Assembly (NCBI RefSeq): GCF_000813745.1
Contig: NZ_JWLC01000021.1
Location: 1-64,000 of the forward strand
Length of the DNA stretch: 64,000 nucleotides
Direction: 5' to 3'
Source: Leisingera sp. ANG-M1
Lineage (GTDB): Bacteria; Pseudomonadota; Alphaproteobacteria; Rhodobacterales; Rhodobacteraceae
Shown: positions 47,555 through 64,000 of the stretch, piece after piece
Position numbering within the stretch: the stretch's first letter is position 1
How the letters are laid out: each line of letters starts with the position of its first letter
Notes under the pieces: model-generated
Told to the model about the DNA's origin: nothing
Seen by the model: the letters and a program-made list of their open reading frames with translations, nothing else
The model's database searches: none
Made by a program: the position numbers and the translations under genes

Positions 47555-48547
47555 TCAGATCCGGAAGCTGACCAGCTTCTTCAGCACCACCGCATTCAGC
47601 ACCGTCAGCAGGATGATGCCGCCCGCCATCGGCCGGAACAGCGGATCATCCGCCACCCCGGAAAAGTAGTCAGGCGTCAGCACCGAGACCGAGCCGAAGA
47701 TCACCAGCGGCAGCGCCGACAGCAGCCAGGCGGTGAGCCGCCCTTCCGAGGCCAGCGCATGCACTTTCCGCCGCAGGGCGATGCGGTTCCGGATCACCCG
47801 CGCCAGCGTATCCAGCATTCCGGACAAATCACTGCCGGTGCCGTGCTGAATGCTGATGCTGGCCGCCAGATACTGCACGTCCTCCAGGCCGCTCCGCTCG
47901 GCAAACTCCTGCGCTGCGGCGGGCAGGTCCTCGCCGTAGCTCACCTGGTCAAAGATAATCCCCAGTTCCGTGCCCGCCGGATCCGCCATTTCCTGGGCCG
48001 CAATGCCGATGGAGTTGTTCAGCGGATGCCCCGCCCGCAAGCCGCGCGCCATCATCTCCAGCGCATCCGGGAGCTGGTGCACCAGCTTGTCCATCTGCTT
48101 CCCCTGCTGCAGTTTCAGCAAGGCCAGCGGCACGCCAAACCCCAAGACTGCGCCAATCGCAACGGCAAGCCCCGGTGCCGCCAAAGCGGCCACCGCAAAC
48201 GACAGCACCGCCGACAGCACCAGGCACCCAGCCAGAAAAACGCCGGTGCTCAGCGGCACCCCGGCCTGGCGCAGCGCCTTCGGCAGCCCGCCGATCAGCG
48301 GCAACCGCCGCCAGCCCGTCCGCCGCGCGGGCGGCCTCAGCAGCGCCAGCCGCTCGGCCCCGGCACGCCCTTGCGCTATCATCCGCATCCGGCGGCTGCG
48401 CGCCGCGGCAGCAAGGCTTGTGCGGCTCAAAAGCTGGTGCAGCCCCGATGCAATCAGCAGCACGCCAAGAGCCAGGCCGCAGGCAATCGCATATCCGGCC
48501 AGATGCCCGTCCCACCCCCGGGCCGTATTCAGGAGCGCGTCCAGCAT
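47555..48547 (-). CDS. tadB: Type II secretion F-family protein TadB
   Basis: 330 residues with an N-terminal helix, and the T2SSF domain (about 155-275: HQLPDALEMMARGLRAGHPLNNSI) with following helices. It starts directly after the tadA stop, without a gap. Confidence 0.93.
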   Translation of the reverse strand: MLDALLNTARGWDGHLAGYAIACGLALGVLLIASGLHQLLSRTSLAAAARSRRMRMIAQGRAGAERLALLRPPARRTGWRRLPLIGGLPKALRQAGVPLSTGVFLAGCLVLSAVLSFAVAALAAPGLAVAIGAVLGFGVPLALLKLQQGKQMDKLVHQLPDALEMMARGLRAGHPLNNSIGIAAQEMADPAGTELGIIFDQVSYGEDLPAAAQEFAERSGLEDVQYLAASISIQHGTGSDLSGMLDTLARVIRNRIALRRKVHALASEGRLTAWLLSALPLVIFGSVSVLTPDYFSGVADDPLFRPMAGGIILLTVLNAVVLKKLVSFRI

Positions 48548-49933
48548 CTATGCCTCCTCCGGCAAAAACAGGCTCTGGTCGAACACCGCCCCCGCAGCCT
48601 CCAGCAGCGCGGCGCATTGCGGCCGGATGCCAGTGGGAATGAACTCCCCGGCAATGCGGCCATCCGCCGTTTTGCCCTGGCGGCGGAACAGGAAAATATC
48701 CTGCATGGTGATCACGTCGCCCTCCAGGCCTGTCAGTTCGGAAATGCTGACGACCCGGCGCTGGCCATCCGCCAGCCGTGCCAGCTGCACGATGATCTGC
48801 AGCCCCGAGGCGATCTGCGCCCGGATGGCAGGCAAAGGCAGCTCCATCCCCATCATCGAGACCATTTGCTCGATCCGCCCCAGCGCGTCGCGGGCGGAAT
48901 TGGCGTGCACCGTAGTCATCGAGCCGTCATGGCCGGTGTTCATCGCCTGCAGCATGTCAAAGGTCTCGGCCCCGCGCACCTCACCCACGATGATCCGGTC
49001 GGGCCGCATCCGCAGCGCGTTGCGCACCAGGTCGCGCTGGCTGACGGCACCACCGCCCGAGGGGTTCGGCGGCCGCGTTTCCAGCCGCACCACATGCGCC
49101 TGCTGCAATTGCAGCTCGGCAGCGTCCTCGATTGTGACGATCCGCGCCCGCTGGTCGATGCCTGCGGAAATCGCATTCAGCATCGTGGTCTTGCCCGAAC
49201 CGGTGCCGCCGGAAATCAGGATGTTCATCCGCGCCTCGACCAGCGCCTGCAAAAAGGCTGCGGCCTGGGCGTTCAGCGCCTGGCCTGCCACCAGTTTCTC
49301 CAGGGTCAGGGGATCGCGGGAGAATTTGCGGATCGACAGCGACGGCCCGTCAATCGCGCAGGGCCGGATGATTGCATTGACTCGGCTGCCGTCCTCCAGC
49401 CGCGCATCGACCCAGGGATTGCTTTCATCGACCCGCCGCCCGACCCGCGACACCACCTTGTCGATGATCCGCAGCAGGTGCTTTTCATCACGGAACCGCA
49501 CCGCGGTTTGCTCCAGCACTCCGCTGCGCTCGACAAATACTGTCTTGTGGCCGTTGACCAGGATGTCATTCACGCCCGGATCTGCCAGCAGCGGCTCCAA
49601 GGGCCCCAGCCCCAGCACTTCGTCGATCAGCTCATCCACCAGGCGGCGGAATTCATCCGCCCGCAGCGGATTGTTCTCCTCGGACAGCACATCGCTGACC
49701 AGCGCCGCCACTTCGCGGCGCAGCTCTTCGGGCTCCACCTTGTCGATCACGGCCAGGTTCAGGCGCTCGATCACAGCCTCATGCATCCGGCTCTTAAGCT
49801 CGAGAAAGGCAATGAGTTTCAGGTCTTCCGGTGCGGGTTCCGGATCAGCCGCACTCCCGCCCTGCGGCCGCAAGGGCACGATCTTGCCCGCATCGGCAGG
49901 GGTGTCCGTCCGTTTGCCAAAGTTCTTGAACAT
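48548..49933 (-). CDS. tadA: Pilus assembly ATPase TadA/CpaF
   Basis: 461 residues from the ATG at 49933, just inside the open frame. A type II/IV secretion ATPase with Walker A GGTGSGKTTMLNAI (about 255-268), the Asp box in RIVTIEDAAELQLQQ, and the His box/Walker B in RPDRIIVGEVRGAETFDMLQAMNTGHDGSMTT. It powers Flp pilus assembly. It lies 1 nt from cpaE and directly at tadB. Confidence 0.95.
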   Translation of the reverse strand: MFKNFGKRTDTPADAGKIVPLRPQGGSAADPEPAPEDLKLIAFLELKSRMHEAVIERLNLAVIDKVEPEELRREVAALVSDVLSEENNPLRADEFRRLVDELIDEVLGLGPLEPLLADPGVNDILVNGHKTVFVERSGVLEQTAVRFRDEKHLLRIIDKVVSRVGRRVDESNPWVDARLEDGSRVNAIIRPCAIDGPSLSIRKFSRDPLTLEKLVAGQALNAQAAAFLQALVEARMNILISGGTGSGKTTMLNAISAGIDQRARIVTIEDAAELQLQQAHVVRLETRPPNPSGGGAVSQRDLVRNALRMRPDRIIVGEVRGAETFDMLQAMNTGHDGSMTTVHANSARDALGRIEQMVSMMGMELPLPAIRAQIASGLQIIVQLARLADGQRRVVSISELTGLEGDVITMQDIFLFRRQGKTADGRIAGEFIPTGIRPQCAALLEAAGAVFDQSLFLPEEA

Positions 49934-49934
49934 C

Positions 49935-51155
49935 TCAAACCGCCTTTCCATGCGAGGGCTGCTCCGCACCGGCGCGGGCATTCCGGGTTCCGATCAGATC
50001 CAAAGCCATCCGCCGAACCGCCTTGGCCAGCCCCGAGCGCCCTGCCGCTGCGGACAGCGGCACCCCGTGATCCGACGCCGCCGCCGCTGCGGAGGCGTCA
50101 TTGGGCAGCCAGTACCGGAACGGCTTTTGCAGAAGCCTGGCAGCTTCCCTGTGATGGCTCGGAGCGATCAGCGGCTTGCGCTCCCGGCTGATCACAATAT
50201 CAGACTGCAAAGCCGGGCTGGCTTCGCCATAGAAATCCAGCAGCCGCCGGGCCTGGCAGATCGCTGGCACCGAGCTGGCGGTGACCATCAGCAGCCGCTC
50301 CGACGCCTCCAGAACCGGTGACAGCCATTCTGCCAGCGCCCGCGGCAAATCGATCACCACAAAGTCGAACTGCAGCCGCAGATGAGCGATCAACGCCTGC
50401 AGCTGCTCCGGTTTCAAGGCATGCAAAGGGGCGATTTCAGCAGGGGCTGCCAGCACCCAGAGCCCCGGAGCGGCTTCGGTCAGCGACTGTTTGGCAAAGA
50501 CATGGTCCGGGACAATTCCCTTGCTGGCCAGTTCATACAGGCAGCGGTTCGGCGGCAGGTCCAGGAAGCTGCCCACCGCGCCGAACTGCAGATCCAGATC
50601 CAGCAGCGCCGTCCGGAACTCCGGCTGCTGCTGCCGGAAGCCGCGGCGCTGCGTCAGGCAATCGGCCAGGTTGACCGCCAGCGTCGTGGCGCCTGCGCCG
50701 CCGCAGGACTGCGCAACCGGGATCACCATGCCGTCGCGGCTGCCGCTGGCGCCGGCAGGCAGCCCGTCCTGGCTGAGGCACTTGCGGATCGCCGCCGACA
50801 GCTCATCCGCCGAGACCGTGTCGGGCAGCACTTCGCGCACCCCGGCATCGGTCAGGCGGCGCAGTTCGGCAAAGGGCAAGGCGGCATCGGCCAGCGCCAG
50901 GATCCGGGCCGCATTCCCGGTGTGCTGCATGATTCCGCGCACCGCAGCCGCATCCTGTTCCGCGCTGCCCCCGACCCGGAAAATCACCAGGTCGTTGCCG
51001 CTCGCCAGCTGCAGCGCGGTGCCGTTGATGTCCGAAAGCGCCGCCGCGCATTTGTGCACGCCGGTGCCGGGGCAGAATTGCGCCACGCTGGCCACCAGGG
51101 TGCTGATGGCCGGATCCTTGGAGATCACCACGATGGATTGCGTCTCAGCCTGCAT
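49935..51155 (-). CDS. cpaE: Pilus localisation protein CpaE/TadZ
   Basis: 406 residues from the ATG at 51155, preceded by AAGGAAGGG. A receiver-like N-terminal half (about 8-120) is followed by a MinD/ParA-type domain (about 145-380). The deviant Walker A reads SCGGAGATTLAVNLA, so the usual signature lysine near its start is not present. CpaE/TadZ places the pilus machine at a cell pole. The gene is separated from cpaB by a 132-bp gap with a strong hairpin. Confidence 0.88.
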   Translation of the reverse strand: MQAETQSIVVISKDPAISTLVASVAQFCPGTGVHKCAAALSDINGTALQLASGNDLVIFRVGGSAEQDAAAVRGIMQHTGNAARILALADAALPFAELRRLTDAGVREVLPDTVSADELSAAIRKCLSQDGLPAGASGSRDGMVIPVAQSCGGAGATTLAVNLADCLTQRRGFRQQQPEFRTALLDLDLQFGAVGSFLDLPPNRCLYELASKGIVPDHVFAKQSLTEAAPGLWVLAAPAEIAPLHALKPEQLQALIAHLRLQFDFVVIDLPRALAEWLSPVLEASERLLMVTASSVPAICQARRLLDFYGEASPALQSDIVISRERKPLIAPSHHREAARLLQKPFRYWLPNDASAAAAASDHGVPLSAAAGRSGLAKAVRRMALDLIGTRNARAGAEQPSHGKAV

Positions 51156-51180
51156 CGGCCCTTCCTTTCTGCATTTCCGA

Positions 51181-51214
51181 CCAAACCCGGCCCGGATCAG
51201 CGGGCCGGGTTTGG
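51181..51214 (-). terminator. Perfect 14-bp hairpin between cpaB and cpaE
   Basis: CCAAACCCGGCCCG, loop GATCAG, CGGGCCGGGTTTGG. No T tract follows on the minus strand, so it probably attenuates or stabilises the transcript between cpaB and cpaE. In many tad loci the secretin gene cpaC/rcpA sits here; it is absent. Confidence 0.75.
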
Positions 51215-51287
51215 CTCCGCTCTCCGGCGCTGCCTGTTCCGGGACTCCGGGGCCACCCCCTTGCCCCATTCCGGACAGTGCCGAAGT

Positions 51288-52094
51288 TCAGCGGATCTCG
51301 GTTTCCGTAACCTCGGTGCCGCGCCGGATCAGAACGGTCTTGCGCACCGGCACGGCCGCATCGGCCGGCGGCAGATTGCGCAGCACATCGCCCAGCCCGA
51401 TCGACTCCAGCGGCACCTCCTCCGCCGGTGCATCCAGCGTCCGCAATGTGAGGCTAAGCGTGCCCGCCCGCTGCGCCAGCGCCAGCCGCTGGCCCTGCTC
51501 CGGGGTCACTTCAACGGTCACGGTCCGGGCCACCCCCGGAGTTTCAGATTCTTCATTGGCATCCTGGTCCACCCCCACCACACGGGAGTTCTGCAGGATG
51601 GTCACGGTCTTCAGATCATTGCCGCGGCCCTGGGTCAGCAGAATGTCGACCCGGTCGCCGGGCGTCACAAATCCGCCCACCGCGGTCTCGGCGCTCACCT
51701 TGATCGCCATCGCCCGGTGGTCCGGGCGCAGCGTTTGCACAATCGTCACCTTCTCGCCGAACTTGGAAATCCGCGAGGCCCGGATCAGCTCGCCCTGGGC
51801 AATCGCGCGGCGCGCCCGGCGCGGCGGCTTGCCCGTCTCCGGCAACAGCGTGTCATACGCGGTAAAGGTCCCCCCCGGCCGCGCCTCGGCAGGCCAGGCG
51901 ATGGTGGTCAGCGACTGCGCCGTGATAGCCGCACCAAACGCAATGTCCTGCGACGCCACCACAACTTCCACCAGCTCCGGCCCCGCGGTGATGCGAGCGG
52001 CATGCTGGCCGTCCATATAGTCCTTGGCGACATAGGCCGAGCCGCCCGCCAGCGCCAGCCCGGAGATCATGCTCAAAAGCGATGAAATATTCAT
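51288..52094 (-). CDS. cpaB: Flp pilus assembly protein CpaB/RcpC
   Basis: 268 residues from the ATG at 52094 (AAAGG 9 nt upstream). An N-terminal helix (about 5-25) is followed by a SAF domain (about 45-110: VVVASQDIAFGAAITAQSLTTIAWP) and the RcpC region with GDRVDILLTQ. It is periplasmic and helps the outer-membrane secretin. It stands between flp and the machinery genes. Confidence 0.92.
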   Translation of the reverse strand: MNISSLLSMISGLALAGGSAYVAKDYMDGQHAARITAGPELVEVVVASQDIAFGAAITAQSLTTIAWPAEARPGGTFTAYDTLLPETGKPPRRARRAIAQGELIRASRISKFGEKVTIVQTLRPDHRAMAIKVSAETAVGGFVTPGDRVDILLTQGRGNDLKTVTILQNSRVVGVDQDANEESETPGVARTVTVEVTPEQGQRLALAQRAGTLSLTLRTLDAPAEEVPLESIGLGDVLRNLPPADAAVPVRKTVLIRRGTEVTETEIR

Positions 52095-52250
52095 GTCATG
52101 CATCCTTTCCGCGCGGCGGTTTGAACTTGGCCGGGCCGTGCCAGCCCCCGGGAATTTGAATGAAAGGATGCCGCAGCCGCATTGCAGCCGCGGCATTCTT
52201 TGGACGCCCGCCCGCAAGCAGCCCCTGCGGGAAAAGGCTCAAGGCAGTTC

Positions 52251-53003: not shown

Positions 53004-54296
53004 TCACGCCAGATGGAGGGCTGCCGCCCGAACGCGGACCCCGCGCGCAATCGCCTCCGCCAGCGCCTCCGGAAAACCTGCCGGCAATCCGGCAAGCGTA
53101 CTCTCCAGAGCCGGCTCAAGCTGCGCCGCAATTTCCGACAATGCTTCCTCCGCCAGGGCCACGCCAAACCCTGCCGCCTTGGCCGCCTGCAAAAAGTGGC
53201 GCGGAACCACTTCGTTGACCCTGTAGTGACCATCAACCGCCATCGCCAGGCGCATGCGGTTTTGGCGGATCTGCCCATCGTCGACTGCCTTCTGCGCGCT
53301 CAGCACATCATAAAGCGGTGTCATCCGGAATCCGCCGGGGCGCAGGGCGACGCTGAAATTCTTGGCATGCCCGTCAGTCGCCCCCAGCAGCCAAAACAGC
53401 ACTTGGGAGCGAAAGAAAGCACGCTGATCGGCCTCAGGCGCATCGCTGGCCGCAAGCAAGCCGATGCTGTCCGTGATCCCCGGCCCGCCGTCCATTTGAT
53501 ACTTCCGGCTGGGCGGCACCGAAAGCGCCTGGCAGAAGTCCTCCTGAGGCAGGCGGATCAGCCGCCCGTCCTTGGTCCAGCGCCGGTCAAATCGCGTCAC
53601 CGCAAGGCTGCGCACATCCTCAAAATCAACGATTTCGGCTTCAGCCGCATCCATACCCATGGCGCGGCAGAAATTCATGCAGAAGAACTCATTCTCGACA
53701 CTGTCGGACAGATCAATTCCGGCAGGCAGAACGCCAAGCTGCGTCTTGAGGATATGGGTCGTAGGGGTCATGCCCGAAGGCCTGATCCATTCATTGTTAT
53801 AGCGCAGCAGCGCCGTTTTCTCCTGCGCGCCCGCAATGGAAATGCGGAAGCTGTCTTCTTCCTCCAGCCCCAGCGGCGCGCTCGCCAGATTGCGCAGCAT
53901 GCGGGCAATTTCAGCACTGGTCACGGGCTCGCCTTCCAGCGCACCGGTCCCGGGAACCTCACCCGGGACAAACTGCAGCGCGCCCACGCAGTCGCGCCCG
54001 ATCTTTTCCAGCATATGCCAGGCATCGGTGCCGCCGGCCCGAACCCGCGCCGCGGCGCGCTCGCGGATTGCCTGATTGTCCGGCAGAAGGTTTTCAAGAT
54101 AGGCGATGACAGGCCCGCCCTGATGCGCATCTTCACGCAAGGGCAGCGACAGCGATACCGGCATGGCGTGCTCCCACGCCAGCCAGTCAGGATCGTAGAC
54201 AAAACTGATCGCGCCAGAGCCGGCGAGGCGCAGCATCCCGACCAGCCGCCCGTTCAGCAGCACCTGCATCTGACCGCCGCGCGCCTGCCCCGCCAT
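53004..54296 (-). CDS. hipA: HipA-type serine/threonine kinase toxin
   Basis: 430 residues, the length of E. coli HipA. It has the HipA pattern: SIAGAQEKTALL (about 153-164, with S153 at the autophosphorylation-loop position), ATDGHAKNFS with catalytic D308, and the DFG-like MTPLYDVLSAQ with metal-binding D330. The E. coli enzyme phosphorylates glutamyl-tRNA synthetase and stops growth. It overlaps hipB by 1 nt (TGATG). All key residues look intact, so it should be active. Confidence 0.92.
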   Translation of the reverse strand: MAGQARGGQMQVLLNGRLVGMLRLAGSGAISFVYDPDWLAWEHAMPVSLSLPLREDAHQGGPVIAYLENLLPDNQAIRERAAARVRAGGTDAWHMLEKIGRDCVGALQFVPGEVPGTGALEGEPVTSAEIARMLRNLASAPLGLEEEDSFRISIAGAQEKTALLRYNNEWIRPSGMTPTTHILKTQLGVLPAGIDLSDSVENEFFCMNFCRAMGMDAAEAEIVDFEDVRSLAVTRFDRRWTKDGRLIRLPQEDFCQALSVPPSRKYQMDGGPGITDSIGLLAASDAPEADQRAFFRSQVLFWLLGATDGHAKNFSVALRPGGFRMTPLYDVLSAQKAVDDGQIRQNRMRLAMAVDGHYRVNEVVPRHFLQAAKAAGFGVALAEEALSEIAAQLEPALESTLAGLPAGFPEALAEAIARGVRVRAAALHLA

Positions 54297-54541
54297 CAGA
54301 AGATATCCTCGATATCCACCGATCCGCCGCGTTCAGCCAGCCGGAACTCCAGCCCCAGCGCAGCCATGACCGCCAGCACTGTGGCCAGCTTGGTTCCGGC
54401 ATCGCCGTTTTCCAGCGACGAGATCGTCGCCACCCGGAGATTGGTGCGCGCGCTGATATCGCTTTGCGTCCAGCCGCGTGCCTTGCGCACCCGCCGGACC
54501 GCTTCACCGAGTTGTTCAGCGGTTCTTGCTGAGAGGTCCAT
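54296..54541 (-). CDS. hipB: HipB-type antitoxin/repressor
   Basis: 81 residues from the ATG at 54541. An XRE helix-turn-helix spans about 8-65 (LGEAVRRVRKARGWTQSDISARTNLRVATISSLENG). The acidic C-terminus (VDIEDIF) is the usual unstructured tail of HipB that is degraded by proteases. It neutralises HipA and represses the operon through the three operators directly upstream. A longer ATG-started reading adds 28 residues that contain those operators and is not the gene. Confidence 0.9.
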   Translation of the reverse strand: MDLSARTAEQLGEAVRRVRKARGWTQSDISARTNLRVATISSLENGDAGTKLATVLAVMAALGLEFRLAERGGSVDIEDIF

Positions 54542-54554
54542 GACGGGGCTCCTT

Positions 54555-54626
54555 TTTACGCCGCAGCGTAACTCGGAGCAATTTACGCTGCAACGTAAAA
54601 ATGCAGAATTTACGCTACAGCGCAAA
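54555..54626. promoter_or_regulatory. Three phased palindromic HipB operators
   Basis: TTACGCCGCAGCGTAA (54556-54571), TTTACGCTGCAACGTAAA (54582-54599) and TTTACGCTACAGCGCAAA (54609-54626) share the dyad TTTACGCN4GCGTAAA-like consensus. Their centres are exactly 27 bp apart. The first is 14 nt from the hipB ATG. The set is the expected HipB cooperative-repression region. Confidence 0.85.
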
Positions 54627-54660: not shown

Positions 54661-55482
54661 CTAACCCACAAAAGCCCGTTCCACGACAAAGGTATCAGGC
54701 TTGCTGTTGGCGCCTTCCGCCAGGCCAAAGCCTTCCAGCACCGTCTTGGTCTCCTGCAGCATTGCCATCGACCCGCAGATCATGCCGCGATCCGCGTCCG
54801 GGCTGATCACCGGCACGCCCAGATCCTCAAACAGCTTGCCCGACGTCATCAGATCGGTGATCCGCCCGCGCCGGCCATAGTCCTGCCGCGTCACCGTAGC
54901 ATAGCGGCGCAGCCGCCCTGCAGCGAATTCACCGACCAGCGGATCCTCCAGCACGCCCTTGACCAGCGCCTCGCCATAAGCCAGCTCCGCCACCTCGCGG
55001 CAGGTATGGGTCAGGATCACCTCGTCGAACTTCTCATAGGTCTCGGGATCCCGGATCAGCGAGGCAAAAGGGGCAATCCCGGTTCCGGTCGAGAACATGT
55101 ACAGCCGCTTGCCCGGCAGCAGCGCGTCATTGACCAGGGTTCCGGTCGGCTTCTTGCGCATCAGCACCGTGTCGCCGGGCTGGATCTTCTGCAGTTTGCC
55201 GGTCAGCGGCCCGTCCGGCACCTTGATCGAATAGAACTCGATCTCCTCGTCCCAGGAGGGGCTGGCAATGGAATAGGCCCGGTAGACCGGCTTTTCCGCA
55301 TTCGGCAGGCCGATCATCACAAACTCGCCCGAGCGGAACCGGAAGCTGCCGGGCCGGGTGATGCGGAATTTGAACAGCCGGTCCGTGTAATGTTCGACCG
55401 AGGTGACCGTCTGGGCAAACACCCCGGCCGGAATGGCAAACCCTGCGGGCGCCCCCTGCACGATAGGTTCAATATCTGACAT
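54661..55482 (-). CDS. fpr: Ferredoxin-NADP reductase
   Basis: 273 residues with the ferredoxin reductase fold: FAD-binding RAYSIASPSWDEEIEFYSIKVPDG (about 98-121), and an NADP domain with MFSTGTGIAPFASLIRD and a C-terminal VERAFVG; the aromatic-containing end is of the subclass found in proteobacterial Fpr. It lies 110 bp after the nicotinate-type operon and may be co-transcribed with it. Since the 6-hydroxynicotinate reductase of Eubacterium barkeri uses ferredoxin, an Fpr feeding electrons to it is attractive, though an independent role in redox stress is also possible. Confidence 0.92.
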   Translation of the reverse strand: MSDIEPIVQGAPAGFAIPAGVFAQTVTSVEHYTDRLFKFRITRPGSFRFRSGEFVMIGLPNAEKPVYRAYSIASPSWDEEIEFYSIKVPDGPLTGKLQKIQPGDTVLMRKKPTGTLVNDALLPGKRLYMFSTGTGIAPFASLIRDPETYEKFDEVILTHTCREVAELAYGEALVKGVLEDPLVGEFAAGRLRRYATVTRQDYGRRGRITDLMTSGKLFEDLGVPVISPDADRGMICGSMAMLQETKTVLEGFGLAEGANSKPDTFVVERAFVG

Positions 55483-55592
55483 GTTGTCCTCGCAATGTGG
55501 ATTTCAGACAGGCGCAGAGATCCGGCCCGGGGCCGCCTTGGGTCCCGGGGGTATCAGATGCGCAGCATTGTAAGGTCAGCCGCTGGGCAGAC

Positions 55593-56177
55593 TCAGCGTA
55601 GCCCGTCCTTGCCCTCGGCCTCTTCCGCGGTCAGCCCTCCGACACGCGGCAACGGGCGGCCGCTGTCAGTGAGGGCAATGGCCACCAGGATTTCATCTGC
55701 CCTGGGCGCATCGTTGAAGCGCACTTCAATACCGTCGAAATGCGAGCGCACATAGGCGGCATCCTTATGCCCCAGCGGCACATCCAGATCCTGGCCCATG
55801 CCCCCGCGCTTCTTCGACGACGGCACCAGCGCTGCGCCTTTTTCAACCGCCGCCCGCAGCGGCGCGCCCATCTTGGGGTGCAGCAGCGCTGCGGCATGCT
55901 CCAGCTCGCCGTTTTCGCCGACCATGGCCGCCTTGCCATAGCTCTCCGCTTGCTCCGGCCGGATGCCAAGGGCGGCCACCGCCTTCTGTCCCAACAGCCC
56001 GCCGAGCTCAGCACCGATTTCCATCAGCCCGGACAGATCTTCGACGTACGCGCCGGCGTGCGGATTGCGGATCACCGCAGCCGCCACTGCCTTGCGGGTG
56101 GGCGGCGAAATGTGCCGCCCGCCTTCGCTGTGGGTTTCCTCGACCCAGACACCGGTCTTCCTGATCTCCGCCTTCAT
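55593..56177 (-). CDS. DUF1185 (amino-acid synthesis domain) protein, copy 2
   Basis: 194 residues from the ATG at 56177, which overlaps the preceding stop by 4 nt. It is a paralogue of the neighbouring 193-residue protein, sharing the YVRSHFD and NDAPRADE(I/M)L blocks and the last GLR. The family (also called amino acid synthesis family protein) has no proven reaction. It sits in the nicotinate-type operon, so a heterocycle-intermediate function is likely. Confidence 0.82.
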   Translation of the reverse strand: MKAEIRKTGVWVEETHSEGGRHISPPTRKAVAAAVIRNPHAGAYVEDLSGLMEIGAELGGLLGQKAVAALGIRPEQAESYGKAAMVGENGELEHAAALLHPKMGAPLRAAVEKGAALVPSSKKRGGMGQDLDVPLGHKDAAYVRSHFDGIEVRFNDAPRADEILVAIALTDSGRPLPRVGGLTAEEAEGKDGLR

Positions 56178-56755
56178 CGCAAGCCGTCCTCTCCCTTGAT
56201 TTGCCAGGCCTCCAGCCCGCCCGAACGGGAATGGATGCGCGGCCCCGTTGTCATCACCAGCGCCAGCAGCATCTCGTCCGCCCGCGGGGCGTCGTTCAGC
56301 CCTACTTCCATCGAGTCGAAATGGCTGCGCACATAGGAGGCGTTCACATGGGTCACCGGCACGTCGATGCGGGTGCCCGGGCCGCCCACCTTCTTGGCCG
56401 AGGGCACAATAGCCTTGGAATTGCCGATCAGCTCCCGCATCGCATAGCCGCCGGGCGCGTGCCACAGGGCGCCATGCTCCAGCTCTCCCGCGCCGCCCAC
56501 CAGCGAGGCCTTGCCATAGCCCTCGATCCGGTCAGCTCCGCCCAGGGCGTCCACCAGTTTCCGGGCCATCTCCAGCCCCAACGGCTTCAAATCCTCCATG
56601 AAGCCTTTGATCTCCGGCTCATAGCGGCCGGCAAAGGGGTTTTTGACCACCGCATAGCAGGCGCCGCGCAAGAGCGGTGTCTCCGCCACCGGGCCGCCTT
56701 CGTGATAGATTTCCTCGACGGCCAGGAGCATTTTCCTGACTTTCACTTCAGGCAT
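56174..56755 (-). CDS. DUF1185 (amino-acid synthesis domain) protein, copy 1
   Basis: 193 residues. Its core, SYVRSHFDSMEVGLNDAPRADEMLLALVM (about 138-166), is nearly repeated in the next protein, so the two look like products of tandem duplication and may form a heteromer. It overlaps UPF0280 by 8 nt at its start and the second copy by 4 nt at its stop. Function is not established for the family. Confidence 0.82.
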   Translation of the reverse strand: MPEVKVRKMLLAVEEIYHEGGPVAETPLLRGACYAVVKNPFAGRYEPEIKGFMEDLKPLGLEMARKLVDALGGADRIEGYGKASLVGGAGELEHGALWHAPGGYAMRELIGNSKAIVPSAKKVGGPGTRIDVPVTHVNASYVRSHFDSMEVGLNDAPRADEMLLALVMTTGPRIHSRSGGLEAWQIKGEDGLR

Positions 56756-57623
56756 GGTGAAGCTCCTTTCTGTTGGATATCTGCGGCACCGCCTGCCCCA
56801 GGGCGGCCTGCGCCCCGCGCAGGAACAGCGCCGCGCCCTTGATCAAACCGCGCTTCAGCATTGATTGCGCAACCGCCTGGCCCGCCGAAATGGCGCGGCG
56901 GCAGTCTTCGGGCGCCAGCAGCGGCACATGGGTCACCACCAGACGCGCGCCCAGATCGCTGTCGGGGCTGAGTTCGCAAGCAGGCCGGCGTTGCACGCCC
57001 GGGTGGCCAGGCAGGTCCACCGCATTGGCAATCAGCGTCGCCGCAGCATCCGCCGCTGCCGCAGAGTGCGCCAGAACGGTCACGCTGTCGGCAATGCCCA
57101 GCGAGAAACTGCGCCCGCCTGCACCGCTGGTGGCAATGCCGCCGATGCCGTCGCCCGCGCACACCCGGATCCGGCCCAGGTCCGCGCCGGCCTGTTCCGC
57201 CATGGCGACAGAGAACACTTCGCCGGCCGCTAAAAACAGCGCAATATCGCCGCCGTTGTTGACATAGGCCCGTTGCAGTGGAACGGCGCGGCACATCGCT
57301 GCCAGCACCGCATCAGCCACCGCTCCGGCCACCGCAATCATCGGGGTCGCAAACCCGGCGGCATGGGGAAGGGCCGCCGCCGCCATCCGCCGGGCCACCG
57401 GGTCCTGCAGCTCAGGCGCCTCGGCCTGCAGCGGACTGCGCAGCACCGGCAATTCGGCCACCAGCCCAGGCAGGATGGTCTCAAACCGCTCAACCGCCGC
57501 AGCAAAAGCCGCCTGCCGCGCCGGCGCATCGGCGCCTTCCGCGCCGATGATCAGGTCAATCGGCCCGTGCTGCAGATGCAGCCGCGCGCCGCCGTCCAGA
57601 TATGCCGCTGCCGGACCCTGCAC
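56748..57623 (-). CDS. UPF0280 family protein
   Basis: 291 residues matching UPF0280, whose fold is related to ApbE flavin transferase. GGDIALFL (about 122-129), with its acidic and glycine residues, and GIATSGAGGRSFSLGIADSVTVLA (about 160-183) correspond to family core strands. It is encoded 3 nt after 6-hydroxynicotinate reductase. In view of the ApbE relationship, a role in flavin attachment or maturation of that reductase is an attractive guess, not an established activity. Confidence 0.85.
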   Translation of the reverse strand: MQGPAAAYLDGGARLHLQHGPIDLIIGAEGADAPARQAAFAAAVERFETILPGLVAELPVLRSPLQAEAPELQDPVARRMAAAALPHAAGFATPMIAVAGAVADAVLAAMCRAVPLQRAYVNNGGDIALFLAAGEVFSVAMAEQAGADLGRIRVCAGDGIGGIATSGAGGRSFSLGIADSVTVLAHSAAAADAAATLIANAVDLPGHPGVQRRPACELSPDSDLGARLVVTHVPLLAPEDCRRAISAGQAVAQSMLKRGLIKGAALFLRGAQAALGQAVPQISNRKELHHA

Positions 57624-57626
57624 CGC

Positions 57627-59117
57627 TCAGCTCCCGGGTTTCCAGCGGTAGTTGCGCCGCGCAACCGGGTCGGCATCCGGGTCAATCTGCCCGACCCGCC
57701 GCACATCTTCGGTGATCACCTCATCAACCAGCCGGATGCTGTCCGTATGCCCGCCAAGCGCCTCGTAGTCCGTGCGCCGCATGGTGAACTCGATCGGCGC
57801 CACCAGCGCCGGCGTCGGCACATAGCCAAAGGAGTTCGACGGCATATCCAGCACATCCGCCATCACGGTGATGCCGCCGCCGGGCCAGACATAGGCGTTG
57901 GCACCGCCGCAGGACACATGGGTCAGCGAGTCCTTCACCGAGTTGGTGAGTTTCACCGGATTCTCGGTCACCCCTGCCCGCAGCGATCCCCCCGCCCCGC
58001 CCATGAACAGAACCGAACAGACCGAAGGCTCGCAATTCTCGGTGATCCTGTCCACCGAGACCTGCAGGTCTGCAGGCAGCTCAGCCGGCTGCGGCTCAAG
58101 GTTTTCGTCCAGTTCGAAGTAGGCGTGCTGTTCTCCCGTGGTGGAAACCATCAGCAACCGCAGCCCCTGCCAGGCCACCTTTGCATCGGCTGGCTTCAGA
58201 ATGGTCAGCGGGTCGTCGATATCGGTGCCGCCCCAGCCAGTGCCAGGCTCCGCCACCTGGAAGTAGCGCCCGGGAGTCGAGCGGCGGCCCTTGATCTTGA
58301 TCCCCGTGGGCGGCACGTTCAGCAGCTTGCCGGCCTGATGCTCGGACAGCACCCCGGTGATATGGTCATCCACCACGATCACCTCGTCGACATGCTGCGC
58401 CCATTGCGAGGCAAACATGCCGATGGTGGCCGAGCCGCAGCCAACCCGCATCCGCTGTTCCGTGACCCCGTTCACGATGGGCGCGGCGCCGGCCTGCACC
58501 ACCACCGTGGCGCCGTCGTCGATGGTCAGCTCCACCGCCTCGCAATTGCACAGTTTCAGCAGCGCATCGCAGGTGACGCGGCCTTCCTTCTTGGTGCCGC
58601 CGGTCAGATGCTCGACCCCGCCCAGCGACAGCATCTTGGAGCCGTATTCGCTGGTCATCACATGGCCTACCGGTTCGCCCTGGCAGCGCACGACAGCACG
58701 CTCGTGGCCCAGGAAGCGGTCGGTGTCGATCTTCACCTTCACCCCGCAATAGCTGAAGATCCCTTCGGTCACGACGGTGACCATATCGGCGTCTGCCACT
58801 TTCTGGCTGACGATGAAGGGCGCGGGTTTGTAGTCGGGATAGGTGGTGCCGGCCCCGACCGCAGTGACAAACGGGCGCCTGCCCTGCAGGATATCCCCGT
58901 CCCAGTCGCTGCCATCGGTGCCCTTCAGGAACGGCACTGCCTGGGTGCCGCTTTCGGCCGCGTTTTCGATGATGGTCAGCGGATCCAGCCGCACCAGCTC
59001 ACCGCCGTGGTTGGCATAGCGGTCGCAGGCGCCGGAGCGGCCCTCGGCGATAAAGCACAGCACCGGGCAGGCATCGCAGCGGATCTTTTCGGGTTGCGGG
59101 CGCGGGCTGTCAGCCAT
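57627..59117 (-). CDS. hnr: 6-hydroxynicotinate reductase
   Basis: 496 residues, close in length and pattern to the 6-hydroxynicotinate reductase of Eubacterium barkeri nicotinate fermentation, which reduces 6-hydroxynicotinate to 1,4,5,6-tetrahydro-6-oxonicotinate. An N-terminal cysteine cluster, C14, C17, C21 and C31 (CDACPVLC), should bind an iron-sulfur centre. The rest is a flavoprotein-like domain with EYGSKMLSLGGVEHLTGG and KIKGRRSTPGRYF. The start overlaps the molybdenum-hydroxylase stop by 8 nt. The symbol is taken from the anaerobe; the substrate here is inferred. Confidence 0.85.
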   Translation of the reverse strand: MADSPRPQPEKIRCDACPVLCFIAEGRSGACDRYANHGGELVRLDPLTIIENAAESGTQAVPFLKGTDGSDWDGDILQGRRPFVTAVGAGTTYPDYKPAPFIVSQKVADADMVTVVTEGIFSYCGVKVKIDTDRFLGHERAVVRCQGEPVGHVMTSEYGSKMLSLGGVEHLTGGTKKEGRVTCDALLKLCNCEAVELTIDDGATVVVQAGAAPIVNGVTEQRMRVGCGSATIGMFASQWAQHVDEVIVVDDHITGVLSEHQAGKLLNVPPTGIKIKGRRSTPGRYFQVAEPGTGWGGTDIDDPLTILKPADAKVAWQGLRLLMVSTTGEQHAYFELDENLEPQPAELPADLQVSVDRITENCEPSVCSVLFMGGAGGSLRAGVTENPVKLTNSVKDSLTHVSCGGANAYVWPGGGITVMADVLDMPSNSFGYVPTPALVAPIEFTMRRTDYEALGGHTDSIRLVDEVITEDVRRVGQIDPDADPVARRNYRWKPGS

Positions 59118-61851
59118 TTGTCTTGTCCTTGATTGCCTGGCGCAGGCGCGAGGGCGTCACCGGAACGCGCCGCATCCGCACGCCTGCTGCCTGGGTGATT
59201 GCATTCAGCAGCGCCGGCGCAGTGGGGATCAGCACATGCTCTCCCAGCCCCTTGGCGCCATAGGGGCCATGGGCGTCCGGCACTTCGATAATCAGCGTCT
59301 CGACCGGAGGCACATCGCCGATGGTCGGGATCAGATAATCATGCAGATTCTCGGTGCGCCCCGGCAGGTATTCCTCCATCAGCGCCATGCCCAGCCCCTG
59401 GGCAATGCCGCCCTGCACCTGGCCCTCGACCAGCATCGGGTTGACCGCCTTGCCGACATCATGCGCGGCCACGAAGTGCAGCGGCGTCACGGTGCCAAGC
59501 GCCATATCCACTTCCACCACCGCCAGCTGCGCCGCATAGCCGAACTGCGCATATGGCTCGCCCTGGCCGTTCTCATCCAGCGGCTTGGTCGGCGGGTCAT
59601 AGGTCTCTTCAGCGGCAAAGACATAGCCGTCGCCATCCGCCGGCAGGCTGCCCAGTTCAATCACGTGGTCAGAGGCGCCATCCGCGATGGTAATGGCACC
59701 GCCGCCAAATCCCAGCACAGCCGCCTCCGAGGCATTGGCGTGGCGCAGGATCTGCGCCCGCAGCGCCTCTCCGCTCAGCCGTGCCGCATTGCCCGACACA
59801 AAGGTCTGGCGCGAGGCTGAGGTCTTGCCTGCATCCGGCGTGATATCGGTGTCGCCGCCCAGCAGCTGCAAATCAGCTGCAGAAATCCCCAGCGCGCTGG
59901 CAAAGAGCTGCGCAATCGCCGTATTGGCGCCCTGGCCGATATCCGCAGCCCCCTGATGCAGCACCACGGTGCCGTCGGCGCGGACGCCCGCCTTGATCGT
60001 TGACGGGTTCGGCAGCGAGGTGTTGCCGCAGCCGTACCAGCCCGCCGCCACCCCCACGCCGCGGCGCAAAGGACCGTCAGCCCTGGCATTGAAAGCCTCA
60101 GCCTTAGCACGTTCTTCTGCCCAGGACGGACGCAATGCTTCCAGGCAGGCGCGGGCGCCGACGCCCTGGTCAAACACCTGGCCGCAAACGGTAGGCTCGC
60201 CATCGCGCAACGCATTCAGGATGCGGAACTCCAGCGGGTCGATGCCCAGCTTTTCCGCCAGCTCGTCAAACAGCTGCTCCTGGGCAATCGCCGACTGCGG
60301 CACACCGAAGCCGCGGAAAGCGCCCGCAGGCGGGCAATGCGTATGGATGCCCATAGCCTCGGCGCGGTAATCGCCTATTCTGTATGGACCCGAGGCATGC
60401 ACCGGCACCCGGTTCGCCACCGTCGGCCCCCACGAGGCATAGGCGCCGGTATTGAATTCGCCTTGGAAGTCGAACCCGGAAATCCGCCCATCGCTGGCAG
60501 CGCCGATCTTCAGCCGGATCTCCGCTGGGTGCCGTTTAGTGGTCGACTGCATCGACTCCGCGCGGCTGTAGGCAATGCGGGCCGGACGCCCGGTCTTGAG
60601 CGCCGCCAGCGCCGCATAGGGCTGCACCGAGATATCCAGCTTGGACCCAAATCCGCCGCCCACCCCGGTGGGCACGATGCGGATATCCTTGCGGTCCTTG
60701 CCAAGGATGATCTCCATCGCCTCCAGATCCATCACCGGCGCCTGGGTGCAGGCGTGGACCTCAACCCGGCCCTTCACGATTTCCGCAAAGCCCGCCTCAG
60801 GCTCGATATAGGCGTGTTCGACAAATCCGGTTGAGAAACGCCCCTCCACAACTGCATCCGCCTGCGCGAACCCCGCCTGCGGATCGCCGCAGGCCACAAA
60901 GCCCCGGCACATCACATTGTGTTCGCGGCCCGCATGCAGCTGCGGTGCCTCAGCAGCCTGTGCGGCGGCAACATCGGCCACACTCTCCAACTCCTGCCAA
61001 GCGACAGGGAAATCCTCCGGACGGAAGGCGGCAATCGCGTCTGGTGTGCCCACCACCGCTGCAACCGCCTCGCCGCGGAACCGGGCGGTGCCTTCGGCAA
61101 ACACCGGCTGGTCGGCAAAGTCCGGGATCACCCCGAACCGGTTCTCCCCCGGCACGTCCTCTGCGGTCAAAACCGCCTCGATCCCCTCGGCACACGCGCA
61201 CCAGCCCTCCAGATCGCCAAACGCAAACCGTGCATGGGCAAAAGGCGAGCGGATCACCCTGACCTCCAGCGTGCCGGGCGGTGCCACGTCATCGCCAAAC
61301 AGCTCGGTTCCGCGCAGCTTGGCCGCCCCATCCAGCCGCCGGATTGCATCCCCGGCCAGCCCGCTGCCATGCAGGCCGGCAGGCGCATCCATCACCGCAT
61401 CCAATATCTTGCGGTAACCGGTGCAGCGGCATAGCACGCCGCCAAGCGCCTCCTTGATCTCGTCCTCTCCCGGGCTGGCGTTCTGCCGCAGCAAGGACAC
61501 CGCCGAGACCATCATTCCCGGCGTGCAAATCCCGCATTGCGCGGCGCCATGATCCTGAAACCGCTCCGCCAGCGCCTGCGCCACGCCATCGGTTGCCATC
61601 AGGCCCGCCAAAGTCTCCACCTGCTGCCCTTCGGCCTGCTGCGCCGCCATCAGGCAGGCGCACACCGTCTCGCCATTGACCAGCACCGTGCAAGAACCGC
61701 AATCGCCGGCGTTGCAGCCGGTCTTCACATCCCGCGCGCCCAGCCGTTCGCGCAGCATCTCCGACAGCCGCTCCCCCAGCCGCGGCACCGCCCGCACCGC
61801 CTGGCCGTTCAAGGTAAAGGCCACTGCCGGATTTACCGCCTGATCCTTCAT
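59110..61851 (-). CDS. Molybdenum hydroxylase: fused [2Fe-2S] and molybdopterin subunit (nicotinate dehydrogenase-like)
   Basis: 913 residues from the ATG at 61851. The N-terminal about 160 residues are a xanthine dehydrogenase-type two-cluster [2Fe-2S] domain: CNAGDCGSCTVLVNGETVCACL (about 43-64) and CGICTPGMMVSA ... CRCTGYRKI (about 103-150). The rest is the large molybdopterin domain, with GVGGGFGSKLD (about 420) and PPAGAFRGFGVPQ (about 510) near the cofactor and KGLGEHVLIPTAPALLNAI near the end, where the Glu is the catalytic base position. In other organisms these parts are usually separate genes. It should hydroxylate nicotinate at C6 together with the FAD subunit. Confidence 0.9.
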   Translation of the reverse strand: MKDQAVNPAVAFTLNGQAVRAVPRLGERLSEMLRERLGARDVKTGCNAGDCGSCTVLVNGETVCACLMAAQQAEGQQVETLAGLMATDGVAQALAERFQDHGAAQCGICTPGMMVSAVSLLRQNASPGEDEIKEALGGVLCRCTGYRKILDAVMDAPAGLHGSGLAGDAIRRLDGAAKLRGTELFGDDVAPPGTLEVRVIRSPFAHARFAFGDLEGWCACAEGIEAVLTAEDVPGENRFGVIPDFADQPVFAEGTARFRGEAVAAVVGTPDAIAAFRPEDFPVAWQELESVADVAAAQAAEAPQLHAGREHNVMCRGFVACGDPQAGFAQADAVVEGRFSTGFVEHAYIEPEAGFAEIVKGRVEVHACTQAPVMDLEAMEIILGKDRKDIRIVPTGVGGGFGSKLDISVQPYAALAALKTGRPARIAYSRAESMQSTTKRHPAEIRLKIGAASDGRISGFDFQGEFNTGAYASWGPTVANRVPVHASGPYRIGDYRAEAMGIHTHCPPAGAFRGFGVPQSAIAQEQLFDELAEKLGIDPLEFRILNALRDGEPTVCGQVFDQGVGARACLEALRPSWAEERAKAEAFNARADGPLRRGVGVAAGWYGCGNTSLPNPSTIKAGVRADGTVVLHQGAADIGQGANTAIAQLFASALGISAADLQLLGGDTDITPDAGKTSASRQTFVSGNAARLSGEALRAQILRHANASEAAVLGFGGGAITIADGASDHVIELGSLPADGDGYVFAAEETYDPPTKPLDENGQGEPYAQFGYAAQLAVVEVDMALGTVTPLHFVAAHDVGKAVNPMLVEGQVQGGIAQGLGMALMEEYLPGRTENLHDYLIPTIGDVPPVETLIIEVPDAHGPYGAKGLGEHVLIPTAPALLNAITQAAGVRMRRVPVTPSRLRQAIKDKTNG

Positions 61852-62690
61852 CGCGCATCCTCCCCTGCCGCCTGCAGCAGCGCCCGGCGGCACAGCTCCG
61901 CCGCCGCCTCCAGCCGGTAGCCCGCCGAGCCCCGCACATCGGACACCGGCGCCAGCGGCGCCAAGTGCAGCTCCGGATCAATGGGCAGATCCACCAGCTC
62001 CGAGACCCGCTGCCCGGTAAACTGCGCCTCCAGTCCCGGCAGCCGCTGCGCCACCGGCGAACAGCTGCCAACAGCCAGCGCCGCCCGGGTGATCACGCCT
62101 TGCTCCACGGTCACAACGGCAGCCGCCATCACAATTGAAATCACCAGATGCGTGCGGCTGCCCAGTTTGAGAAACGCCGCCCTGGCCTCCCCTGCCTGGC
62201 GCGGCACATGCACCGCCAGCACAAACTCGTCTGCCGCCAGATCCACCTGCCGCACCCCGGTGATGAAGTCCCGCAGCGCCACCAGCCGCACGCCGCGGTG
62301 CGACACCACTTCTACCTGCGCATCCAAGGCCAGCAGCGGCGGCACGCCATCAGCCGCGGGCGAGGCATTGCAGAGATTGCCGGCCACCGTCGCCCGGTTC
62401 TGGATCTGCCGCGAACCAACCTGCCGCGCCGCCTGTTTCAGCCCGTCAAAACAACCCGGCAGCGGCGTCTGAACAATGTCGGTCCAAGTGGCGGCCGCAC
62501 CGATCCGCCAGCCCTCCGCCGTTTCCTCAACCCCGCGCGCCCCGGCCAACCGGGTGATATCCATCACATCGCCGCATGCCCCTGCCGGCAGGCCTGGAAA
62601 GAAATCGGTGCACCCGGCGATCACCCTCGGCGAACCCCGGGCCAGGATCGAACAGGCCTCCTCAACATCTCTGGGCACCAGATACGGCAC
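61848..62690 (-). CDS. Molybdenum hydroxylase FAD-binding subunit
   Basis: 280 residues of the xanthine dehydrogenase M-subunit type. RVIAGCTDFFPGLPAG (about 20-35) and GSRQIQNRATVAGNLCNASPAAD (about 92-114) bind FAD. It passes electrons from the fused subunit to an acceptor. It overlaps the fused subunit's start by 4 nt and is the first gene of the operon, with the palindrome at 62712-62729 just 21 nt upstream of its ATG. Confidence 0.9.
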   Translation of the reverse strand: MPYLVPRDVEEACSILARGSPRVIAGCTDFFPGLPAGACGDVMDITRLAGARGVEETAEGWRIGAAATWTDIVQTPLPGCFDGLKQAARQVGSRQIQNRATVAGNLCNASPAADGVPPLLALDAQVEVVSHRGVRLVALRDFITGVRQVDLAADEFVLAVHVPRQAGEARAAFLKLGSRTHLVISIVMAAAVVTVEQGVITRAALAVGSCSPVAQRLPGLEAQFTGQRVSELVDLPIDPELHLAPLAPVSDVRGSAGYRLEAAAELCRRALLQAAGEDAR

Positions 62691-62711
62691 GCGCAGCCTC
62701 CCCGCAGCTTT

Positions 62712-62729
62712 TCGTTAGTATACAAACGA
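62712..62729. promoter_or_regulatory. MarR-type operator before the nicotinate-type operon
   Basis: TCGTTAGTATACAAACGA is an 18-bp dyad with one mismatch per half. It lies immediately upstream of the FAD-subunit gene and matches the site before enamidase (63343-63360) in 16 of 18 positions. Confidence 0.75.
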
Positions 62730-62810
62730 TATGGACGCAAAACACCTGAGTCAACACTCTTGGCCGCCAGCCAAGGCGCATCCCGCCAATTGCGGAAACT
62801 CAGCCGGGCT

Positions 62811-63257
62811 TCAGCCCAGCTTCTTCAACAGCTCCAGAAAGGTGTCTTTCTCAGACTCGGTCAGCGGCGCCAGCGTTGCCTCCGAAATCCTGTGCCCGGA
62901 CTCATACAGCTGCGGCACCAGACCGGCATGCTCTTCGGAAATTGACAGCATCAAACGCCGTTTGTCATTGGGGTCAGGCTGCAGCTGCACCAGCCCCTTC
63001 TTGCGCAGCCGGTCCACCACTCCCTTGATGGTGGCCACATCCATCGCGGTCCGCCGCCCCAGCTCGTTTTGCGAACAAGCCCCCCGCTCGGCCAGTTTCA
63101 CCAGCGCCGCAAACTGCGTCGGCGTCAGCTCCAGCGGCGCCAGCTTCTGAAAGATCGCCGCATGCCGCTGCCCGGCCAGCCGCATCAGATAGCCGACCTG
63201 CGCATCCAGCACATAGGCCGGGCGCTGCGTTTCATCTGTTCCGGACGGCTCACTCAC
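62811..63257 (-). CDS. MarR-family transcriptional regulator
   Basis: 148 residues of the MarR family with a winged helix (about 48-105: LTPTQFAALVKLAERGACSQNELGRRTAMDVATIKGVVDRLRKKGLVQ). In Pseudomonas putida the nicotinate-degradation repressor NicR is a MarR protein, so an analogous repressor here fits. It lies between the two operators and between the oxidative operon and enamidase, all probably its targets. Confidence 0.9.
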   Translation of the reverse strand: MSEPSGTDETQRPAYVLDAQVGYLMRLAGQRHAAIFQKLAPLELTPTQFAALVKLAERGACSQNELGRRTAMDVATIKGVVDRLRKKGLVQLQPDPNDKRRLMLSISEEHAGLVPQLYESGHRISEATLAPLTESEKDTFLELLKKLG

Positions 63258-63342
63258 GTCTGCGCTCCTTCAGGCAAGGCTCCCGCTCCCATAAGGCCAA
63301 CCCGGGCGCGCTGCAAACGCAAGCTTGAAATCGCTCCCAAAT

Positions 63343-63360
63343 TCGTTAGCATACAAACAA
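63343..63360. promoter_or_regulatory. MarR-type operator in the marR-enamidase gap
   Basis: TCGTTAGCATACAAACAA, 19 nt upstream of the enamidase ATG, is 16/18 identical to the site at 62712-62729. It is placed to control the plus-strand enamidase gene and probably marR itself. Confidence 0.72.
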
Positions 63361-63379
63361 ACAGCAAAGGGAGGCGCCG

Positions 63380-64000
63380 ATGGACAGCCCGGCAACCAAA
63401 CTGGTGATCAAGAACATTGGCCTCATGCTGACCGGCAAGCTCGAAGCCCCGGTTGCCGACGGCGACTGTGTGATCGCCGTGGACGGCAGGATCACCGCAT
63501 TCGGCTATGAAAAGGACCTCGACACCGAAGGCGCCGCAACCACTGTGGACGCCAAAGGCGTGACACTGGCTCCGGGGCTGATCGACAGCCATATCCACCC
63601 GGTGGTCGGCGACTACACCCCGCGCCAGCAGCAGCTGCACTGGATCGATTCCACCCTGCACGGCGGCGTGACCACGATGATCTCGGCAGGCGAAGTCCAC
63701 ATGCCGGGCCGCCCCAAGGATATCGTCGGCCTCAAGGCAATGGCGATTGCGGCGCAGCGCTGGTATGAAAACTTCCGCCCTTCCGGCGTCAAGGTGCTGG
63801 CCGGCGCGCCGGTGATCGAACACGGCATGGAGGAGCAGGACTTCAAAGACCTGGCCGATGCCGGGGTAAAGTTCCTGGGCGAAGTGGGCCTTGGCACGGT
63901 GAAGGACGGCAAGACCGCCAATCAGATGGTCAACTGGGCCCGCAAATACGGCATCCAGTCCACCATCCACACCGGCGGCCCCTCGATCCCCGGCTCCGGC
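63380..64000 (+). CDS. ena: Enamidase (amidohydrolase), 3' end beyond the window
   Basis: The visible 207 codons match Eubacterium barkeri enamidase, which hydrolyses 1,4,5,6-tetrahydro-6-oxonicotinate to ammonia and 2-formylglutarate. The amidohydrolase metal ligands H71 and H73 are in LIDSHIHPVVGDYTPRQ, and LHGGVTTMISAGEVHMPGRPKD and LGEVGLGTVKDGK are close to the known enzyme. The GGGAGG 7 nt before the ATG is a strong ribosome site. Roughly half the protein lies beyond the edge. It is divergent from marR. Confidence 0.9.
   Translation, partial: MDSPATKLVIKNIGLMLTGKLEAPVADGDCVIAVDGRITAFGYEKDLDTEGAATTVDAKGVTLAPGLIDSHIHPVVGDYTPRQQQLHWIDSTLHGGVTTMISAGEVHMPGRPKDIVGLKAMAIAAQRWYENFRPSGVKVLAGAPVIEHGMEEQDFKDLADAGVKFLGEVGLGTVKDGKTANQMVNWARKYGIQSTIHTGGPSIPGSG

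Follow-up and report, generated by a model that had tools for sequence, protein, structure and literature searches.

A probable reductive nicotinate operon in Leisingera sp. ANG-M1 and the UPF0280 protein that accompanies its 6-hydroxynicotinate reductase

In the genome of Leisingera sp. ANG-M1, the genes for a molybdenum hydroxylase and a 6-hydroxynicotinate reductase (Hnr) are followed by a gene of the UPF0280/COG2122 family, and an enamidase gene lies nearby in divergent orientation. This locus raises the question of which compound is degraded and what the UPF0280 protein contributes. The DNA analysed (the window) corresponds to positions 1 to 64,000 of contig C14 (NZ_JWLC01000021.1; 234,227 bases), which is part of a 5.37-Mb genome. 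The operon probably serves to break down nicotinate by the reductive route known from Eubacterium barkeri and Azorhizobium; for the UPF0280 protein, a role as a dedicated maturation factor of Hnr is proposed. The route itself is already known; less ordinary are the helper gene that goes with Hnr and a ring-opening enzyme that appears to be exchangeable.

The operon and its predicted substrate

The operon consists of seven minus-strand genes (62690 to 54661) arranged almost head to tail. The first two encode the flavin adenine dinucleotide (FAD) subunit of the molybdenum hydroxylase (61848..62690; Pfam FAD_binding_5, 4.6e-37, and CO_deh_flav_C) and a fused 2Fe-2S/molybdopterin subunit of 927 amino acids (59110..61893; Fer2, Fer2_2, Ald_Xan_dh_C and MoCoBD_1/2), the proposed nicotinate hydroxylase. 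They are followed by Hnr (496 amino acids; 57627..59117) and the UPF0280 protein (56748..57623). Two PF06684 (DUF1185) proteins come next, designated a (56174..56755; 3.3e-70) and b (55593..56186; 1e-72), and after a gap of 110 nucleotides (nt) the operon ends with a ferredoxin-NADP-reductase-like flavoprotein (54661..55482; FAD_binding_6 and NAD_binding_1). On the other side, a MarR-family regulator (62811..63257, minus strand; Pfam MarR, 8.6e-15) separates the operon from the enamidase on the plus strand, of which 63380..64000 lies in the window and the whole gene occupies 63380-64552 of contig C14 (L002:3381-4553). Many genomes show the same order of genes, so the arrangement of this cluster is not due to chance. 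An earlier note on this DNA had placed the hydroxylase, Hnr and enamidase in one cluster, and all three are present; it left unmentioned the UPF0280 gene and the two PF06684 genes that separate Hnr from the ferredoxin reductase.

In the proposed pathway, the molybdenum hydroxylase would convert nicotinate to 6-hydroxynicotinate, Hnr would reduce this compound to 1,4,5,6-tetrahydro-6-oxonicotinate (THON), and the enamidase would open the ring to yield 2-formylglutarate and ammonia. The carbon would then probably proceed via glutarate to glutaryl-CoA and to a glutaryl-CoA dehydrogenase encoded elsewhere. The electrons required by Hnr would probably be delivered by the ferredoxin-NADP-reductase-like protein. 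A nicotinate route is supported by the near end-to-end match of the enamidase to 2VUN, by the relatives of Hnr, by the 3HRD matches of the hydroxylase, by the exchange of the hydroxylase in other genomes, by a Liv-type ATPase in relatives, and by the glutaryl-CoA dehydrogenase.

The enamidase matches 2VUN, the enamidase of E. barkeri, with E = 6.6e-103 over residues 6-387 of 390. H71, H73, E168, H197, H224 and D280 are conserved in this alignment, and amidohydrolase chemistry suggests that they act as metal ligands, which the earlier note had called intact. Hnr matches neither a Pfam nor an NCBIfam family at E 0.001 and therefore owes its name to its relatives. The protein is 62-76% identical to Hnr in 26 named plasmid records, many of them annotated as 6-hydroxynicotinate reductase, and its nearest relatives among these are from Sulfitobacter and other alphaproteobacteria. 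The N-terminal residues C14, C17, C21 and C31, the four-cysteine signature pointed out previously, are invariant in all 28 aligned sequences; the same is true for C124, C227 and C362, which makes seven invariant cysteines in total. In one genome (G028:C1:2969823-2971204), Hnr is found in two adjoining pieces in different frames, that is, with a frameshift or a sequencing error.

For the hydroxylase, PDB matches of the fused subunit include chains A, B and D of nicotinate dehydrogenase 3HRD. The fused subunit scores below the NCBIfam equivalog cut-offs for xanthine dehydrogenase (XDH) proper (TIGR03311, 526.8 versus 830.45; pucD, 484 versus 783.65; and others). The comparison of the surroundings of Hnr took in 44 neighbourhoods: four plasmid stretches, each 29 kb long, and 40 others of at most 19.9 kb, some of which are cut short by the end of a contig. 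The hydroxylase beside Hnr is of the XDH type in 31 of them and of a NicA/NicB type in 10, and in none do both occur together (31 and 9 with a stricter floor). The NicA/NicB type is a differently built enzyme that resembles a protein listed in a Neorhizobium record as NicA/NicB (nicotinate dehydrogenase). Because the XDH type is swapped for an enzyme named for the same substrate, nicotinate is favoured as the substrate, and the previously suggested order of hydroxylase, Hnr and enamidase gains support.

It is rather improbable that the cluster serves a related N-heterocycle, i.e. another pyridine carboxylate or a hydroxypyridine that undergoes the same hydroxylation, reduction and hydrolysis, with nicotinate not being the physiological substrate. 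The FAD subunit scores below the cut-off in all 8 NCBIfam families matched and the fused subunit in all 22, the specificity of the hydroxylase is unreadable from its sequence, and the ring-hydroxylating dioxygenase that is added in 5 of the 44 neighbourhoods suggests varied substrates. However, the enamidase is a close and nearly full-length match to an enzyme of E. barkeri nicotinate catabolism, and the alternative hydroxylase resembles an annotated nicotinate dehydrogenase. Moreover, strain SG-6C, which has the same cluster, is reported to degrade 6-hydroxynicotinate (PMC3511419). The dioxygenase matches concern the alpha subunit and were found near Hnr in L148, L149, L150, L063 and L066; they suggest an extra substrate entering the pathway.

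The nicotinate catabolism of E. barkeri was reportedly worked out by Alhapel in 2006. The cluster shares with it the molybdenum hydroxylase, Hnr and the enamidase, which is homologous over nearly its full length. In contrast, the molybdenum cofactor (MoCo) subunit is split in E. barkeri (3HRD chains A and B) and fused with the FeS part here, and none of the later fermentation genes could be recognised over 15 kb downstream of the enamidase. A 2012 paper describes a homolog of the E. barkeri 6-hydroxynicotinate reductase in Bradyrhizobiaceae strain SG-6C, a cluster conserved in Azorhizobium caulinodans and other putative nicotinate-degrading proteobacteria, and the THON/glutarate route (PMC3511419). 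In A. caulinodans ORS571 and SG-6C, a single cluster likewise encodes the initial three steps together with conserved proteins whose function is unknown; it contains a putative nicotinate ABC (ATP-binding cassette) transporter (PMC3511419), whereas Pot-type genes are found past the enamidase here. Plasmid pDSM110277_c of Sulfitobacter pontiacus (L063) carries an enamidase-like amidohydrolase, a ferredoxin-NADP reductase, both hydroxylase subunits, Hnr, UPF0280, two PF06684 proteins and MarR; its Hnr and enamidase are 76% and 84% identical to those of the window. It differs in the positions of the ferredoxin reductase and the enamidase and in having an additional ring-hydroxylating dioxygenase and an ABC transporter. 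Given the description of the cluster in proteobacteria (PMC3511419) and the 26 plasmid records with Hnr, the surprise that the earlier note saw in a reductive route was overstated; its interpretation is largely sound, albeit not new.

The UPF0280 protein and its association with Hnr

With 371.9 bits, the UPF0280 protein passes the cut-off of NCBIfam NF003322 (290 bits). Hnr is present in 44 of 289 genomes sampled from the class (45 rows, of which a weak one, G053 with E 3.8e-4, was dropped) and in 32 of 398 genomes sampled from the phylum; in a further search, one short match (G724) was dropped before counting. An NF003322 search of the same 289 genomes yielded 48 genomes, and 44 after four weak partial rows (G143, G109, G099, G121) had been dropped. 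These are the same 44 genomes that contain Hnr, and none in the sample has only one of the two genes; as the counts include related genomes that are not independent, the number overstates the evidence. Across the 289 genomes, 42 pass the NF003322 cut-off; the remaining two of the 44, G064 and G087, have the gene split at contig ends.

The two genes are also close neighbours. Both matches lie on one contig in 43 of the 44 genomes, at most 207 nt apart with a median of 75. In two sets of 30 loci each, which represent 58 distinct places including the window's own (two were fetched twice), a UPF0280 match was found within 1.5 kb of Hnr in 30/30 and 30/30 cases, and all 44 neighbourhoods contain UPF0280. 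A MarR-like match stands between the two genes in L055. Of 24 named stretches, all of which carry Hnr, 20 include enough downstream sequence, and 19 of these have UPF0280 next to Hnr; in the exception, L098, it is located elsewhere in the same genome. The genomes of the four loci that were cut off carry UPF0280 as well (six of six genomes searched, L103 included). Directly after Hnr in L098 (5017-6945), which stems from a Granulosicoccus metagenome-assembled genome, there is an open frame with many tandem DSDDDGVATAG-like repeats. The Hnr cluster is also found in SAR116 marine genomes (L100, L101, L108, L109, L113, L117, L119, L120), whose UPF0280 is strongly diverged (29-39% identity in the main pieces, 79% in one short piece of L108), with Hnr at 62-64%. 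Outside the sample, the UPF0280 family may well occur without Hnr: in a control search with NF003322, Methanocaldococcus jannaschii and Methanosarcina acetivorans gave matches that stayed under the cut-off.

UPF0280 has an ApbE fold. Its score for the ApbE family PF02424 is 11.1, compared to a cut-off of 25.6, and two relatives reach 22.1 and 21.3. With respect to the triad S241, H257 and D285 of Vibrio cholerae ApbE, the equivalent Ser and Asp are invariant in 22 of 22 UPF0280 sequences, the equivalence being based on motifs and not on a structural superposition. In E. barkeri, Hnr is said to contain a covalently bound flavin. We propose that UPF0280 is a maturation factor dedicated to Hnr, most plausibly for its flavin, which it would perhaps attach.

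Several observations weigh against this proposal and against the nicotinate pathway of which it is part. In the alignment of the 22 UPF0280 sequences, His is in the majority at no position between the invariant Ser and Asp, and the D-x-x-[ST]-G-A-[ST] target motif is absent in Hnr, where xHLTGG[STG]K at residues 169-176 comes nearest. UPF0280 thus differs from the ApbE/Ftp flavin transferases (PF02424) in its score, in the triad and in its partner. For the fused hydroxylase subunit, aldehyde oxidoreductase 1DGJ (2.6e-118) outscores the single chains of nicotinate dehydrogenase 3HRD. The assignment of Hnr, made via named relatives with the E. barkeri Hnr sequence itself outside the comparison, is a probable one. 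Furthermore, no step after the enamidase, be it of a glutarate, hydroxymethylglutarate or E. barkeri-type set, was recognised in the 15 kb past this gene (L002), and none of the genes flanking the operon could be recognised as a nicotinate-specific transporter.

The absence of a conserved His from the triad position also argues for a different function, in which UPF0280 acts on the sulfur or Fe-S chemistry of Hnr (delivery of persulfide or of a cluster) and not on its flavin. This is a serious possibility, albeit one that falls short of being probable. It corresponds to what has been proposed for COG2122 together with DUF39 in homocysteine synthesis; the seven invariant cysteines of Hnr and a COG2122-like gene that adjoins DUF39 in L127 speak for it as well. 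Desulfovibrio requires COG2122 to make homocysteine, with the chemistry left open (PMC5764234). A comparison of Hnr with the single DUF39 protein from L127 gave an hhalign probability of 0.2, and Pfam scans found no PF01837 match in Hnr. In the open-licence literature, a scope outside which most subscription papers fall, the term "UPF0280" turned up in no paper.

Ring opening by enamidase or, possibly, by HyuA/HyuB

The enamidase is found near Hnr in 15 of the 44 neighbourhoods and HyuA plus HyuB in 12, and the two never occur together (Fisher p 0.003; same counts with a stricter floor). A genome-wide search of 40 Hnr genomes at E <= 1e-30 detected the enamidase in 19. After eleven genomes had been extended, HyuA was found near Hnr in 14 of the 40, none of which has an enamidase at this threshold; HyuA and HyuB were sought near Hnr only, and the extended genomes were all among those without the enamidase. 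HyuA and HyuB have no match in the window, in L002 or in L142. HyuA-type proteins constitute an ATP-dependent lactamase family.

It is unlikely that HyuA and HyuB are a neighbouring but unrelated catabolic pair and no substitute for the enamidase. These families are widespread and have many paralogs, the genomes compared are not independent, HyuB was not found in the stretches examined for two of the 14 HyuA genomes (G093, G066), and neither the enamidase nor HyuA was found in 7 of the 40. What argues for a substitution is that no genome of the 40 combines an enamidase with HyuA near Hnr, that the 14 HyuA genomes lack the enamidase anywhere at E <= 1e-30, and that relatives in the family hydrolyse lactams with ATP, as described for caprolactamase (PMC8453981). 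No paper of the open-licence literature, with most subscription papers outside that scope, contains both "6-hydroxynicotin" and "hydantoinase". We put forward only tentatively, and as a rather doubtful combination, that COG2122/UPF0280 is a non-canonical cytosolic flavin transferase or maturase with Hnr as client and that the route is modular, the ATP-dependent HyuA/HyuB replacing the enamidase in many alphaproteobacteria.

One of the PF06684 proteins co-occurs with the enamidase. Copy b, distinguished from copy a by the best tblastn match to the two copies of the window, is present in 15/15 neighbourhoods with an enamidase versus 6/29 without (p 2e-7); eight of the 44 have no PF06684 match at all. 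Because copy b tracks the enamidase, it may act on the product of this enzyme. For PF06684, a structure has been described, with no more than a suggested link to amino-acid metabolism (PMC2954203).

Later steps, neighbouring genes and significance

The earlier note had expected the later pathway enzymes beyond 64000 on the plus strand. None was recognised. Of the genes named in the 15 kb past the enamidase, only one, of the LuxR type, is on the plus strand. Between the enamidase and this gene, the minus strand encodes a Pot-type ABC transporter, ribokinase-like and ADP-ribosylglycohydrolase-like proteins, a GntR-type regulator, an aminotransferase and an ornithine-cyclodeaminase-like protein; past it, the minus-strand products are a thiolase, an M20 deacylase, CoA-transferase subunits and a class III aminotransferase. 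These names are partly family matches, and the rest were read from the sequence. A glutaryl-CoA dehydrogenase is encoded on contig C77 (L131), with 4W9U ("acyl-CoA dehydrogenase", 1.3e-206) as the first and 3GNC (glutaryl-CoA dehydrogenase, 9.6e-187) as the second match; cells also use such an enzyme to break down lysine and tryptophan. CsiD was not found in the genome. Both results fit, and do not prove, the Azorhizobium route via glutarate. A long open frame adjoining the dehydrogenase (L141:10874-12424) resembles a relative of the non-pyrrolysine trimethylamine methyltransferase MttB, as read from the sequence only.

A Liv-type ABC ATPase with at least 35% identity is matched near Hnr in 29 of the 44 neighbourhoods and not in the window's locus, where only ABC ATPases with 25-28% identity lie beside the operon. 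The ferredoxin-NADP-reductase-like protein has PRK10926 as its top NCBIfam match (123.5 bits versus a cut-off of 390) and is matched near Hnr in 13 neighbourhoods; MarR matches recur across the 44. Past the end of the operon, and judged by translations only, a small helix-turn-helix gene (54296-54625) and a HipA-like kinase gene behind it (53004-54296) resemble a HipBA-type toxin-antitoxin pair, and 47555-52217 contains a Tad/Flp pilus-like set (TadB/C-, CpaF-, CpaE- and CpaB-like), all on the minus strand.

With this cluster, the number of probable nicotinate degraders grows by one. An exchange of enamidase and HyuAB, if true, would mean that the same ring is opened in two different ways. The tie between Hnr and UPF0280 matters more: Hnr is a second partner of COG2122, one with a defined reaction and, reportedly, a covalent flavin, and the function of this family is therefore directly testable.

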